From Flavobacterium sp. (GTDB lineage Bacteria; Bacteroidota; Bacteroidia; Flavobacteriales; Flavobacteriaceae): a stretch of DNA of 64,000 bases. Within the stretch, counting starts at the first letter, position 1, and each line of letters begins with the position of its first letter. The stretch spans positions 62,001-126,000 of the forward strand of contig JADFAM010000009.1 of assembly GCA_015665265.1 (NCBI GenBank), given 5' to 3'. Below, piece after piece: positions 12,238 through 51,825 of this stretch. The position numbers were made by a program, and so were the translations under genes. The notes beneath the pieces were generated by a model. It was given only the letters and a program-made list of their open reading frames with translations, had not been told where the DNA came from and made no database searches.

Positions 12238-13497
12238 ATGAAGGTTTTTAAATTTGGTGGAGCTTCCATAAAAAATGCAAATGCAATTAAAAACGTAGCT
12301 AAAATTCTTAATTCTCAAGATGTAAGTAATTGTTTATTGGTTATTTCTGCTATGGGCAAAATGACCAATGCCTTTGAAAAAATTACTGATGCATATTTTA
12401 ACAATGATCAAGAAAAACTAACAGAATCTATAGATTTTACCTCTAATTTCCATTTTAAAATCATCAATAATCTTTTTGCAGAAAATCATTTAATACACCA
12501 AAAAATCACTGTTTTATTTGGACAATTAGTGTGTTTTTTAACCCAAAACAAATCAAGAAATTATGATTATTTATACGATCAAATAGTTTCTTATGGTGAA
12601 CTGTTGTCTACAACAATTGTTAGTGATTATTTAAATGAAATAAAAATTTATAATAATTGGGTAGATGTTAGAGAAATTATAATAACTGATACTATTTTTA
12701 GAGATGCTACAGTTAACTGGCAAGAAACAGAAAAACGAATTAAGACGAATATAGATTTTTCAAAATTAACAATAGTTCAAGGATTTATAGGAGGTGATTT
12801 AAATGGAAATACAACTACTTTAGGAAGAGAAGGTTCTGATTTTACGGCAGGAATTTTTGCCTATTGCACAGATGCTGAAAGCCTCACTATATGGAAAGAT
12901 GTTTTAGGAGTATTAAATGCTGATCCTAGAGAATTTAAAGAGGTTCAATTACTGGAGCATATTTCATACGAAGAAACTATAGAAATGGCTTTTTATGGAG
13001 CTTCAGTAATTCATCCAAAAACTATAAAACCAATTCAAAACAAAAAAATACCCCTGATTGTAAGATCTTTTAAGAATCTTAATTCTCCAGGAACTAAAGT
13101 TTGTGAGGGAGTTACACTAGAGCCTACCATTCCATGTTTTATAGTTAAAAAAAATCAAGTATTAGTTTCAATTTCCTCATTAGATTTTTCATTTATAGTG
13201 GAGGAAAATATCAGTGATATTTTTAAGCTTTTCCACAAATACCAACTAAAAGTAAATTTAATACAAAATTCCGCTATTAGTTTCTCAGTGTGTGTTGATA
13301 ACAATCTTAATCACTTTGATCTATTTTACAATGAAATAAAAAACATGTACAAAGTATCTTTTATTAAAAATGTTGATTTATTCACTGTCAGACATTTTAC
13401 AGAAAACTCACTTGAAGGAATTTACAAATTAGGAACTTCTTTAGTATCTCAAATCAATAAAAATACTGCTCAAATAATAATTCAAAAAAATAATTGA
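12238..13497 (+). CDS. Aspartate kinase, monofunctional
   Basis: Phosphorylates aspartate, the entry step to lysine, threonine and methionine. The 419 residues begin with the amino-acid kinase motif KVFKFGGASIKNANAIKNVA and contain GREGSDFTAGIFAY and KDVLGVLNADPREF of the aspartokinase catalytic domain (about 1-285). Residues about 300-410 are a divergent regulatory region in place of a clear ACT pair. There is no homoserine dehydrogenase domain. It is co-transcribed with the GNAT gene; the OlsF-like gene downstream has its own promoter inside the 50-base gap. Confidence 0.92.
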   Translation: MKVFKFGGASIKNANAIKNVAKILNSQDVSNCLLVISAMGKMTNAFEKITDAYFNNDQEKLTESIDFTSNFHFKIINNLFAENHLIHQKITVLFGQLVCFLTQNKSRNYDYLYDQIVSYGELLSTTIVSDYLNEIKIYNNWVDVREIIITDTIFRDATVNWQETEKRIKTNIDFSKLTIVQGFIGGDLNGNTTTLGREGSDFTAGIFAYCTDAESLTIWKDVLGVLNADPREFKEVQLLEHISYEETIEMAFYGASVIHPKTIKPIQNKKIPLIVRSFKNLNSPGTKVCEGVTLEPTIPCFIVKKNQVLVSISSLDFSFIVEENISDIFKLFHKYQLKVNLIQNSAISFSVCVDNNLNHFDLFYNEIKNMYKVSFIKNVDLFTVRHFTENSLEGIYKLGTSLVSQINKNTAQIIIQKNN

Positions 13498-47903: not shown

Positions 47904-47911
47904 TAAATTTG
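47904..47911 (+). promoter_or_regulatory. -7 box of the HYC_CC_PP operon, leaderless spacing
   Basis: TAAATTTG matches TAnnTTTG and ends seven bases before the ATG at 47919. No good -33 TTG is seen. It predicts a leaderless message for the first gene of the metal-related operon. Confidence 0.5.
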
Positions 47912-47918
47912 CATTGCA

Positions 47919-48332
47919 ATGAATTTAATAGGAAAAAAAATAAGTGCATTTATTCTGTCATGCATAGTACTGTTTTCGTCAATGTCTTTTGCCATAGATG
48001 AACATTTCTGTGGTGATCAAGTTATGGATGTGTCTTATTTTGGAAATGCCGATGATTGTGGTATGGAGAAAGTTGACACAAACTCCAATGTTTCAATCCT
48101 AAAAGGGAATAATTGCTGTAAAGATGAAGTTACACGCTTTGAATCTTCCTTGTACAGCATAGAAAAACCATTAAGCATTCATAACTTAGCATTTCAACAT
48201 CTTTTTTTTAATACTCATCATAATAATGGTTTTAATAGAATAAAAGCCTTAAGAATTGAATATTACAAAGATTTTTCTCCCCCTGACATTAGTCAAAATT
48301 TTCAGATTTTACATCAAATTTTTTTAATTTAA
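47919..48332 (+). CDS. HYC_CC_PP family exported protein
   Basis: A 137-residue protein with a signal peptide (ILSCIVLFSSMSFAIDE). It matches the Bacteroidota family named for three motifs: H-aromatic-C at HFCG (Cys31), a cysteine pair at NNCCKDE (Cys66-67), and PP in SPPDISQ near the end. A further cysteine is in DDCGM (Cys47). No enzyme fold is apparent; the spaced cysteines suggest soft-metal binding. It leads an operon with a TonB-dependent receptor and an HMA protein, 77 bases before the receptor start. Confidence 0.82.
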   Translation: MNLIGKKISAFILSCIVLFSSMSFAIDEHFCGDQVMDVSYFGNADDCGMEKVDTNSNVSILKGNNCCKDEVTRFESSLYSIEKPLSIHNLAFQHLFFNTHHNNGFNRIKALRIEYYKDFSPPDISQNFQILHQIFLI

Positions 48333-48409
48333 TTTTAATAATTAACACATTATAATCATCTTTTTAGATGATAATACGTCTAGTTATTATTAAAATTAAA
48401 TACAATACA

Positions 48410-50653
48410 ATGAAAAGAATTATAGTTTTTACCCTATTTTTATTTTTTCCATTATTCATTTTCTCTCAAGAAAAATTAACTGGTATGATCATGGATAAAA
48501 ATAATCCAAAAGATAATTTAGGAGTTTTTGGAGCTAATGTTTACTGGCTAAATACCTCTATAGGAGCTACAACTAACGAAAAAGGATGGTTTACAATTCC
48601 ATACAACAAAAGCTATAAGAAACTTGTAGTTAGCTATGTAGGTTATAAGACAGATACACTTAATATTAGTGATTTGGAGCCAATACATCATTTTATAACA
48701 TTAGAGAATGAATTGGAAGAAGTAACCTTAAAAAGTAAAAAGAAGGCTACTCAAAGGTCCTTTATTCAAACAAAAAATGTTTTTACAGTTAATAGTGAAG
48801 AGCTTCTCAAGGCTGCTTGTTGCAATTTAGCTGAGAGTTTTGAAACAAACCCATCCATTGATGTAAATTTTTCTGATGCATTAACGGGGACTCGTCAAAT
48901 TCAAATGTTAGGCTTAAAGAGTCCTTATCTACTTATTACTCAAGAAAATATTCCATCAATACGTGGCGCTGGTCAGGTATTTGGTCTTACTTTTACCCCT
49001 GGAACATGGGTTGAAAGTATTCAAATCACCAAAGGTGCAGGGAGTGTTATTAATGGCTACGAGAGTATTTCAGGTCAAATTAATGCTGAGTTAGTAAAAC
49101 CTCTAACAGATAATAGAATCTTTCTAAATGCGTATGGTTCTTTAGGAGGTAGATATGAACTGAACTCACATTTAAATCATAAAATTTCTGACAAATGGCA
49201 AACAGGAATATATATTCATGGAAATTATAGAAATAAAAAATTTGACAGAAATAAGGATGGATTTCTAGATAATCCTCTAATTAGCCAAGTTAATGTTATG
49301 AACCGTTGGCAATATTTAGATGCAGAAAAAGGATGGGTAAGTTTTATTAATGTCCGATTTATGGATGATTCTAAACAAACTGGCCAAAATAATTTTGATC
49401 CACATATAGATAAAGGTAGGTCTGAGGTATGGGGTGGTGAAATAGACACAAAGCGTTTTGATTCTTCTTTAAAATTAGGATATGTTTTTCCACAACTCCC
49501 TTTTCAAAGTTTTGGATTTCAGTTTTCCTACAGTAACCATGATCAAGATTCTTATTTCGGCCTTAAAAAGTATGATATTAATCATCAAAGTGTCTACTCT
49601 AATTTACTCTTTAATTCAATAATAGGTGATACACGTAGTAAATTTACGACAGGATTAAATTTCACTTATGATATTTATGATGAATTTGTTAATTCAATAA
49701 ATTTTTATAGAAAAGAGAAATCTTTTGGAGGTTTTTTTGAGTATGCTTACGATAATTCAGATAATTTTAGTTTTACTTCAGGCGTAAGAATAGATACTCA
49801 TAATTTACTTGGAACTTATATAACACCAAGATTACATATTAGATATGTTCCTTGGGAAAAAGGAGTGTTGAGAGCTTCGATTGGACAGGGCAGAAAAAGC
49901 GCAAATGTATTTGCAGAAAACCAACATTTATTTGCAAGTACTAGACAGATTGATATCCAATCCTCAGGAGGTAAAATTTATGGATTAGATCCAGAAGTTG
50001 CATGGAATTATGGGTTATCATACTTACAGGGATTTAATTTATTTAATAGAAAAGGAGATATTACTTTTGACTATTATAGAACTCATTTTCAAAATCAAGT
50101 TGTAGTAGATTGGGAAAATCCGCAAAGAATTTCTTTTTACAATTTGGATGGAGAAAGTTATGCAAATAGTTTTCAAACTGAGGTCAATTATTTTGTAGAT
50201 GATTTCACAAGCCTACGTTTAGCATATAAATTCTATGATATAGAAACTGATTATTTTTCAGGAAAATTATCAAAACCGTTAACACCAAATCATCGTTTAT
50301 TTGCAAATATTTCATATGAAACAAAAAAAATAGATGATATAAAACAATGGAAATTTGATTTAACTTATAATTTTATAGGTGAACAACGATTACCAGATAC
50401 ATCAACTAATCCGGTGGAATACCAATTAGGAGAGTATTCAAATTCATATAGTTTATTAAATACTCAAATTACTAAAGTTTTCACTGAAAAATTTGAAATG
50501 TATTTTGGAGTAGAGAATTTAACAGATTTAAAACAGAAAAATCCTATTTTAGCATCTGATGACCCATTTGGTGATAGCTTTGATTCAACAATAATCTATG
50601 CGCCAATTTTCGGGAGAATGTTATACAGTGGATTACGATTTAAAATTAATTAA
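48410..50653 (+). CDS. TonB-dependent receptor with CC motif, probable metal importer
   Basis: Outer-membrane importer of 747 residues, counted from the ATG at 48410, which begins a clean signal peptide (VFTLFLFFPLFIFSQ). Residues about 22-100 are a carboxypeptidase-regulatory-like domain (NVYWLNTSIGATTNEKGWFTIP). A plug follows (MLGLKSPYLLITQENIPSIRG, SIQITKGAGSVINGYESISGQIN), then a barrel ending GRMLYSGLRFKIN. Just before the plug is LLKAACCNLAESF with adjacent Cys137-138. The flanking HYC_CC_PP and HMA genes point to copper or another thiophilic metal, which is an inference. Confidence 0.9.
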   Translation: MKRIIVFTLFLFFPLFIFSQEKLTGMIMDKNNPKDNLGVFGANVYWLNTSIGATTNEKGWFTIPYNKSYKKLVVSYVGYKTDTLNISDLEPIHHFITLENELEEVTLKSKKKATQRSFIQTKNVFTVNSEELLKAACCNLAESFETNPSIDVNFSDALTGTRQIQMLGLKSPYLLITQENIPSIRGAGQVFGLTFTPGTWVESIQITKGAGSVINGYESISGQINAELVKPLTDNRIFLNAYGSLGGRYELNSHLNHKISDKWQTGIYIHGNYRNKKFDRNKDGFLDNPLISQVNVMNRWQYLDAEKGWVSFINVRFMDDSKQTGQNNFDPHIDKGRSEVWGGEIDTKRFDSSLKLGYVFPQLPFQSFGFQFSYSNHDQDSYFGLKKYDINHQSVYSNLLFNSIIGDTRSKFTTGLNFTYDIYDEFVNSINFYRKEKSFGGFFEYAYDNSDNFSFTSGVRIDTHNLLGTYITPRLHIRYVPWEKGVLRASIGQGRKSANVFAENQHLFASTRQIDIQSSGGKIYGLDPEVAWNYGLSYLQGFNLFNRKGDITFDYYRTHFQNQVVVDWENPQRISFYNLDGESYANSFQTEVNYFVDDFTSLRLAYKFYDIETDYFSGKLSKPLTPNHRLFANISYETKKIDDIKQWKFDLTYNFIGEQRLPDTSTNPVEYQLGEYSNSYSLLNTQITKVFTEKFEMYFGVENLTDLKQKNPILASDDPFGDSFDSTIIYAPIFGRMLYSGLRFKIN

Positions 50654-50655
50654 AA

Positions 50656-51027
50656 ATGAAAAAAACTATTCTTATTATTTGCTTGTTGTTAATAGGATTT
50701 TCTGCATCAGCTCAAAAGAAAAAAAAGAACTCTAAAGTCGCTATTGAAGTTGATGGAGTTTGTATGATGTGTAAAAAACGTATTGAAAAAGCTGCATTAA
50801 ACTCTAAAGGAGTAAAGTTTGCATCATGGGACCTTAAAACCCATCAACTTTCACTTATCATAGATGAAAATAAAACAGATACAAAAATTATTCAACAAAA
50901 TATAGCCGCTGTTGGTCATGACACTAAAGGTATTAGAGCAAAAGATCATGTTTATAATCAAATAGATCCTTGTTGTAAATACAGGGATAAAAAAATTGTA
51001 GACGCTCATGACAAAGTTGAAAATTAG
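50656..51027 (+). CDS. Exported heavy-metal-associated (HMA) domain protein
   Basis: A 123-residue protein with a signal peptide (LIICLLLIGFSASAQ) followed by a lysine cluster. A single HMA domain carries the metal-binding CxxC as DGVCMMCKKRIEKAA (Cys36, Cys39), with AAVGHDTKG in the later strand. After the domain there is a cysteine pair in QIDPCCKYRD (Cys106-107). It is a periplasmic or surface metal chaperone candidate for the receptor encoded two bases upstream. The end overlaps the next gene by 20 bases. Confidence 0.9.
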   Translation: MKKTILIICLLLIGFSASAQKKKKNSKVAIEVDGVCMMCKKRIEKAALNSKGVKFASWDLKTHQLSLIIDENKTDTKIIQQNIAAVGHDTKGIRAKDHVYNQIDPCCKYRDKKIVDAHDKVEN

Positions 51028-51769
51028 AAGTCTATTCTTAAAAGCTGCAACTACAATTTTTATTATAAATCTTTTAGTTTCTTGCCAAAAAAAAATCACT
51101 GTTGATGATATTCTTTCTAAATCTATTAAAGCTCATGGAGGTATAGAACTTTGGCAGAAAATTGATACACTCTCCTTTACTAAGAAAACAATTTTATATA
51201 ATCAAGAGGGGGTTAAAGAGAAAGAAACTACCCAACATCAATCATTTTATGAAGGTATTCCATTACATGGGAAAATATCTTCACTTGGAGCTGAAAAGTC
51301 AAGTATATCAGTCATAAATGGTGTCTATGCCAAGAGCATTCGAGATTCTCTAATTCCAATAACAGATCGTGAAATTAAAGCTATTAATAATTCTTTTAAA
51401 TCAGCATATTACGTTATAAGCCAGCCTTTTAATTTAAAGGAAAGTGATGCATTGCTTTTTTATAAAAAAGACACTATTTTAAATGGTGAAAAAACATTTG
51501 TAGTGGATGTTTCTTACAAAGTAGATGAAAATACAAATACTCCAGATCAATGGACTTATTTTTTTAACGCCAAGACATTTTTAGTTGTAGCAGCAAAAGT
51601 TTTTCATTCACCTACAATAAGCTTTATTAAAAACACAAAATTTAACACTAAAACACCTTTTGTTTTTAATTCAGAAAGAGTAAGTATTTTTATAAATAAG
51701 GATGGTACAGAAGATTTCGTAAGAGCAGCTTATTTTTATTCAAATTTTAAAGTAGTTTTTAAGAAATAA
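51008..51769 (+). CDS. Lipoprotein, DUF6503-like
   Basis: A 253-residue product with a lipoprotein signal (IFIINLLVSCQKK, Cys26). The mature part starts DDILSKSIKAHGGIELWQKIDTLSFTKK, a pattern seen in LolA/LolB-like and DUF6503 proteins of Bacteroidota. It continues as beta strands without cysteines. The fold resembles lipoprotein-sorting or lipid-binding half-barrels, but the family assignment is from memory of its N-terminal pattern. It is translationally coupled to the HMA gene by a 20-base overlap and ends the operon. Confidence 0.7.
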   Translation: MTKLKIRSLFLKAATTIFIINLLVSCQKKITVDDILSKSIKAHGGIELWQKIDTLSFTKKTILYNQEGVKEKETTQHQSFYEGIPLHGKISSLGAEKSSISVINGVYAKSIRDSLIPITDREIKAINNSFKSAYYVISQPFNLKESDALLFYKKDTILNGEKTFVVDVSYKVDENTNTPDQWTYFFNAKTFLVVAAKVFHSPTISFIKNTKFNTKTPFVFNSERVSIFINKDGTEDFVRAAYFYSNFKVVFKK

Positions 51770-51770
51770 A

Positions 51771-51807
51771 ACAACAAATCCCAACCCTTTAGGTTGGGAT
51801 TTGTTGT
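51771..51807 (-). terminator. Terminator of groL (shared gap with the metal operon)
   Basis: A 16-base-pair perfect stem (ACAACAAATCCCAACC with its complement) and a five-base loop. The T-rich tail lies on the minus-strand side, so it mainly ends groSL; it may also stop the convergent operon. Confidence 0.85.
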
Positions 51808-51825
51808 CAACTGAACAATGTAATC

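Follow-up and report, generated by a model that had tools for sequence, protein, structure and literature searches.

Cis-acting arrest chains such as TnaC, SecM, MifM and VemP expose or protect the gene that follows them, TnaC being arrested at its UGA stop codon. For copper, the closest described systems are CutF of Rhodobacter capsulatus (cutFOG), an exported sensor with C-terminal prolines and a stem-loop over the next start codon (PMC9973294), and CruR of Bordetella pertussis, a DUF2946 protein in which a CXXC motif is followed by RAPP and whose gene lies ahead of that for a TonB-dependent transporter (TBDT; PMC9426467). The CutF paper also lists, by rules, many CutF-like proteins of Bacteroidota and notes their copper-related neighbours (PMC9973294), so that the general idea developed here was anticipated. 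According to a 2025 survey of RAPP leaders, Cu-related RAPP/RGPP upstream open reading frames are absent from Bacteroidota (PMC12992588). The locus considered here lies in a window of 64,000 nucleotides (the whole stretch of DNA that was analysed) from Flavobacterium sp., contig JADFAM010000009.1, and comprises the genes for a protein of the HYC_CC_PP family (HYC in the following), a TonB-dependent receptor (TBDR), an exported protein with an HMA domain and a lipoprotein (table 1). Gene order, motif conservation, spacing, a stop/start hairpin with its covariation and a predicted change in accessibility were computed for it. The reading that we favour, with good though not high confidence, is that the TBDR and the periplasmic HMA protein make the operon a copper-linked module for uptake across the outer membrane, controlled by HYC as a cis-acting regulatory nascent chain. 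CutF and CruR being the closest known systems, we conclude that HYC is probably a regulator of this copper-sensing, nascent-chain kind in a form proper to Bacteroidota.

With CutF, HYC shares the position of an exported first gene product, the Cys metal ligands, the C-terminal proline motif, a stem-loop at the next start codon and the heading of copper genes. It differs in the protein family, as judged by hidden Markov models, in the CC motif in place of CxxxC, in a conserved FLI-stop tail past the PP, in a stem that spans the stop codon itself and in the next gene, which encodes a TBDR rather than a multicopper oxidase. With CruR, it shares the first place in an operon that also encodes a TonB-dependent copper transporter, a constant distance between a Cys motif and a C-terminal PP, and a poorly structured chain; a CXXC with RAPP near the end, Rho-dependent termination, a long intergenic region and a dispensable export signal are CruR's own. 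HYC of the window has no RAPP or RGPP near its C-terminus, where it reads SPPD, and the other homologues mostly have SPP, NAPP, PPP or KPP. The CutF-paper rule that places PP within the last 15 residues admits HYC tails with PP 12 residues from the end and misses the form of the window (PMC9973294). From TnaC, SecM, MifM and VemP the protein is set apart by other ligands and sequences, and the arrest of HYC is itself a proposal. A literature search, supplementary lists not covered, found no paper on HYC_CC_PP, its hairpin or its tail.

The window protein matches NF047658 (HYC_CC_PP, NCBIfam) over its full length with 88.5 bits (cut-off 28). It combines an export signal, a Cys motif and a C-terminal PP with the position of first same-strand gene of a metal operon, the combination by which CutF/CruR-like proteins are recognized, and the mRNA has the predicted stem-loop occluding the start of the next gene that marks the CutF type. 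C31, C66, C67 and P122 are invariant among the 71 aligned HYC sequences. In 155 of 180 homologues, 70-72 residues separate the CC from the stop codon; the PP drifts over a range of 12 to 22 residues from the C-terminal end, and the spacing from the HYC motif to the CC is variable. The last three positions have an information content of 2.8-3.4 bits, comparable to CC and PP, and the last 18 residues average 1.96 bits versus 0.97 in the middle, where the 40 residues between the conserved motifs carry about 1 bit each. An AlphaFold2 model (mean predicted local distance difference test score, pLDDT, 62; predicted template modelling score 0.33) is confident for the signal peptide only and gives no confident fold. 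Among 118 homologues, 98 TAnnTTTG boxes begin 10-19 nt ahead of the ATG, and HYC is, as judged from sequence, the first gene of its transcript, with almost no 5' leader. UGA terminates 133 of 180 HYC genes (74%) versus 98 of 964 other genes (10%), a preference that could reflect either release-factor-2-dependent arrest or pairing within the hairpin.

The stem found in the window (19 bp; minimum free energy −20.1 kcal/mol, z −3.2) has counterparts across loci, where the HYC stop codon falls at the middle of the 5' arm and the 3' arm is located about 5-30 nt 5' of the next ATG. The arm sequences vary by genus, yet remain complementary. When arms were permuted among 141 non-redundant loci (10,000 permutations), pairing with the own partner scored 24.7, compared with 17.37 ± 0.30 (maximum 18.5) for permuted partners; the same test on control gene pairs gave 15.7 versus 15.0, i.e. 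almost no covariation. The expected number of linking base pairs reaches six or more in 89% of HYC loci versus 24% of controls, and the covariation signal is seen ahead of TBDR, HMA-MauE and RND genes. With the mRNA blocked up to the HYC stop codon by a simulated ribosome, the next start is predicted to become more accessible (0.60, from 0.40 without the block; controls 0.49, from 0.46), and a block reaching only as far as PP changes nothing; since only the stop-positioned ribosome has this effect, arrest is predicted at the last HYC codons and not at PP. The hairpin was also considered as an intrinsic terminator and rejected: its stem is A/T-rich, the sequence downstream is A-rich (A makes up 52% of the 10 nt preceding the ATG), and a terminator scan called only the repeat behind the operon.

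A regulatory nascent chain is indicated by the fixed CC-to-stop distance, the conserved C-terminus, the lack of a predicted fold, the first-gene position and the covarying hairpin. Ribosome arrest, copper as ligand and a direction of the response are what we infer, and the sequence of events would be as follows. Transcription would begin only just ahead of the HYC start codon, and the chain would be exported through Sec, until its conserved C-terminal segment (PP ... F-L-I-stop) holds the ribosome on the stop codon or directly beside it. Approximately 70 residues roughly equal the length of the ribosome tunnel plus translocon. Once translation arrives at the stop codon, the CC would be about that far from the peptidyl-transferase centre and the sensor thus on the periplasmic side, where the CC, together with H29, C31 and C47, could bind Cu(I). 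The ribosome held at the stop codon would cover the 5' arm of the hairpin and leave the receptor start region exposed, which a ribosome at PP would not do; on its release the hairpin would form and the receptor would be shut off. Metal binding would either strengthen or relieve the arrest, so that the metal occupancy of the chain would set the translation of the receptor. By analogy with CruR, we expect that low copper turns the receptor on, the alternative being a CutF-like response of opposite sign. The economical assignment would be the CruR type (copper releases the ribosome, receptor off) for a copper importer and the CutF type for CusA.

Several observations weigh against this mechanism. 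Similar HYC tails precede import and efflux genes, whose copper responses should be opposite, and the tails of the two groups are not separable by eye. Pairing within the stem, where the stop codon lies, may account for part of the UGA bias, and HYC of the window itself ends in UAA. The hairpin signal is weaker for the mixed class of remaining downstream genes. RNAalifold, applied to a MAFFT alignment of the intergenic region of 22 members of the genus, found no common structure, which we think is due to arms shifting register; thus, the case for covariation stands on the arm-permutation test with its control gene pairs, which was used in its place. Finally, no match to DUF2946 (PF11162, the CutF/CruR family) was obtained genome-wide at E≤1 despite the two HYC copies of the genome, and the family is absent from those listed for the 71 HYC proteins at E≤10, so that HYC is not placed in DUF2946.

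HYC is not confined to uptake loci. It was found in 92 of 297 genomes of the phylum, and in 30 of 34 HYC loci fetched from the phylum scan irrespective of the receptor a same-strand gene lies within 200 nt. The genes that follow encode TBDRs, HMA proteins, HMA-MauE proteins, a CopA-like ATPase with HMBD, HMBD proteins, an outer-membrane efflux protein (OEP) and CusA-type RND pumps. The HYC-headed RND protein of locus L221 matches Escherichia coli CusA (E=2e-194), and its methionines align with the three of the CusA Cu/Ag site, which we take to be M573, M623 and M672, when counted on the alignment with a 7-residue offset allowed. The second HYC of the window genome (locus L087) has its own stop/start hairpin (−35 kcal/mol with inner stems). 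With homologues heading CusA, a CopA-like ATPase and other heavy-metal genes, the thiophilic-metal theme of the initial annotation is well founded, copper being the most likely metal. HYC could, instead of sensing, be an ordinary exported copper-binding protein, with a hairpin that merely couples the translation of the next gene and no arrest. Its signal peptide and metal ligands would suit such a role, and a hairpin by itself would yield translational coupling; the CC-to-stop spacing, the conservation of the final residues, the UGA bias, the lack of fold and the many different copper genes that follow would, however, be left unexplained, which makes this account unlikely.

The receptor has both the plug (PF07715, match at 136-236) and the barrel (PF00593) that define TBDRs, and its modelled barrel matches TBDTs including OprC. 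Its two cysteines are the only ones in 747 residues and are adjacent, and it alone carries a CC among the 48 window genes of at least 150 residues, so that the pair is more than chance. CC[ND][LI] occurs in 164 of 172 hits of the receptor family, the exceptions being mostly paralogues, plus a CCEL variant, and 61 receptors, with identities as low as about 31%, retain the KAACCNL-type pair; when 24 receptors are aligned, no cysteine is invariant apart from C151 and C152 (numbered from the first ATG). A distant paralogous receptor of 27% identity, on the same contig outside the window (G000:C1:37277-39445; L002, L088), has no CC. TonB-dependent copper receptors are known in OprC and CrtA/BfrG (PMC8610252, PMC12914433). 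The window protein differs from them in having the CC at the start of the plug instead of CxxxM/HxM (neither of these OprC copper-site motifs was found in its sequence), an N-terminal CarboxypepD_reg-like domain and an HMA partner. In the AlphaFold2 model the plug has a pLDDT of about 24-57, and the location of the CC is not interpretable there. Searching PDB sequences with the receptor gave no hits with the single sequence and partial hits only with a profile, and a literature search turned up no data on how copper affects the expression of this receptor in flavobacteria.

The HMA protein matches PF00403 with 28.9 bits (cut-off 24.8), its CxxC being CMMC, and 137 of the 138 homologues contain a second CC, 64-71 residues past the CxxC in nearly all. 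In three genomes (L067:3133-5643, L069:3605-6268, L070:4221-6893) the receptor carries one or two fused HMA domains N-terminally, each followed by a CC of its own, and this fusion makes a hand-over from the receptor CC to HMA plausible. The TBDR and the HMA protein are a good candidate for uptake of a thiophilic metal, probably copper; a hand-off between them via the CC pairs is possible, and we infer that copper is what is taken up and passed on.

The initial annotation had gone further and read HYC, TBDR and HMA protein as structural parts of one uptake route, a thiophilic metal being relayed from the surface to the periplasm through their CC pairs. The pairs are indeed conserved in all three proteins throughout Bacteroidota (71 of 71 sequences in HYC), so that the lack of conservation named there as a refutation is not seen, the three genes are syntenic, and fusion ties HMA to the receptor. 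However, the fused forms seen do not include HYC, which has no confident fold and precedes unrelated genes such as those of CusA and P-type ATPases, and no carrier would need the constant spacing of CC and stop codon, the conservation of the last residue or the covariation of the stop/start hairpin. HYC is thus probably not a member of a relay, and a route that includes it appears improbable. About as improbable is a CruR-like mode, in which arrest prevents Rho-dependent transcription termination and the hairpin is secondary: CruR, too, precedes a TBDT and acts in this way, but the intergenic regions of the present loci are A/T-rich and short, with a median of 77 nt, compared with 162 bp in the G+C-rich CruR locus, and a hairpin placed exactly over stop and start is nearer to CutF.

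Regulation by HYC as a nascent chain may extend beyond the receptor operon. Tentatively, and with somewhat less than even confidence, HYC could be a new type of copper-sensing arrest peptide, found throughout Bacteroidota, that stalls at release on its own stop codon (F-L-I-UGA/UAA, not PP/RAPP), reads periplasmic Cu via a CC at a fixed reach of 70 residues and switches a stop/start hairpin, similar tails governing import (TBDR) and export (CusA).

The receptor is present in 122 of 149 related genomes, mostly in single copy. The gene orders were HYC-TBDR-HMA in 98 loci, HYC-TBDR-HMA-lipoprotein in 7, HYC-HMA-TBDR in 11, TBDR-HMA in 12, TBDR alone in 13 and fused in 3, counts that are not unbiased frequencies, as loci were fetched via the receptor or HYC and some are cut by contig or fetch ends. 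The TBDR-type HYC, the TBDR and the close HMA protein are missing jointly in genomes of the same genus: near-complete ones without the receptor (G011, G013, G020, G028, G060) keep one HYC and lack the close HMA. Of the four genes, HYC, TBDR and HMA form a conserved set; the lipoprotein, with no family match, was seen next to the operon in no more than about ten close relatives and was rejected as a core member, being by its distribution a lineage-specific addition. In Winogradskyella, Algibacter, Formosa and relatives (L128, L151, L133, L147 and others), an HMA protein of about 240 residues lies between HYC and the receptor, and the one scanned also has a MauE domain. A second, weaker HMA homologue is found about 7-20 kb from a non-receptor HYC (G023:C1:1629357, G001:C1:357370 and others), and the HMA protein may be duplicated between import and efflux loci.

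Table 1. Positions of the operon features in the window and of the second HYC locus of the genome.
Feature	Position	Strand	Basis or remark
TAAATTTG, Bacteroidota-type −7 promoter box (TAnnTTTG)	47904..47911	+	directly 5' of HYC start codon
HYC_CC_PP gene, 137 aa: signal peptide, HFC, CC, PP, C-terminal FLI-stop	47919..48332	+	NF047658 match
HYC CC codons (C66, C67), 70 residues ahead of stop	48114..48119	+	invariant
HYC PP codons, 15 residues from C-terminal end	48279..48284	+	homologue comparison
HYC C-terminal F-L-I-stop, proposed arrest site	48321..48332	+	information content, simulated-ribosome accessibility
Hairpin 5' arm: last HYC codon, stop codon and 14 nt beyond	48327..48346	+	folding, covariation
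Hairpin 3' arm, ending 8 nt 5' of receptor start codon	48383..48401	+	folding, covariation
TBDR, 747 aa: CarboxypepD_reg-like domain, CC, plug, barrel	48410..50653	+	PF13715, PF07715, PF00593
Receptor CC codons, its only two cysteines, before or at plug start	48818..48823	+	alignment
Exported HMA protein	50656..51027	+	PF00403; CxxC 50761-50772, C-terminal CC 50971-50976
Lipoprotein, lineage-specific operon member by its distribution	51008..51769	+	no family match; 10 loci only
Inverted repeat between operon and groEL, terminator-like	51770..51808	.	called on − strand by terminator scan
Second HYC_CC_PP of the window genome, then CusA-type RND gene at contig end	L087:12518-12943 and 12940-13060, contig C40		

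The source genome is flavobacterial (2.37 Mb in 132 contigs), and the closest named relatives in the receptor search were uncultured Flavobacteriaceae, Tenacibaculum and Polaribacter. The four open reading frames initially annotated, their order and motifs (NNCCKDE, AACCNL, CMMC, DPCCKYRD), and the 20-nt overlap of the lipoprotein gene with the HMA gene were found again in the sequence. Two details needed correction. The lipoprotein, described as lacking cysteines, has one, Cys26 of the lipobox, and the receptor start was moved from 48368 to 48410, all relatives beginning at the MKK/MKR codon and ATG 48368 lying inside the RNA hairpin. Automatic gene calling would place the start at that same ATG, within the proposed regulatory element.

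With these results HYC_CC_PP, a family known only by the letters of its motifs, gains a testable role, and the CC-bearing receptor with its HMA partner, sometimes one polypeptide, becomes a concrete candidate for outer-membrane copper entry in Bacteroidota. A word of caution also follows: a small 'exported metal-binding protein' at the head of an operon may be a regulator. If the proposal is true, nascent-chain copper sensing, experimentally known from two examples in Pseudomonadota, would reach a phylum reported to be without RAPP-type copper leaders, in a form that has a covarying stop/start hairpin and, possibly, a new arrest site.

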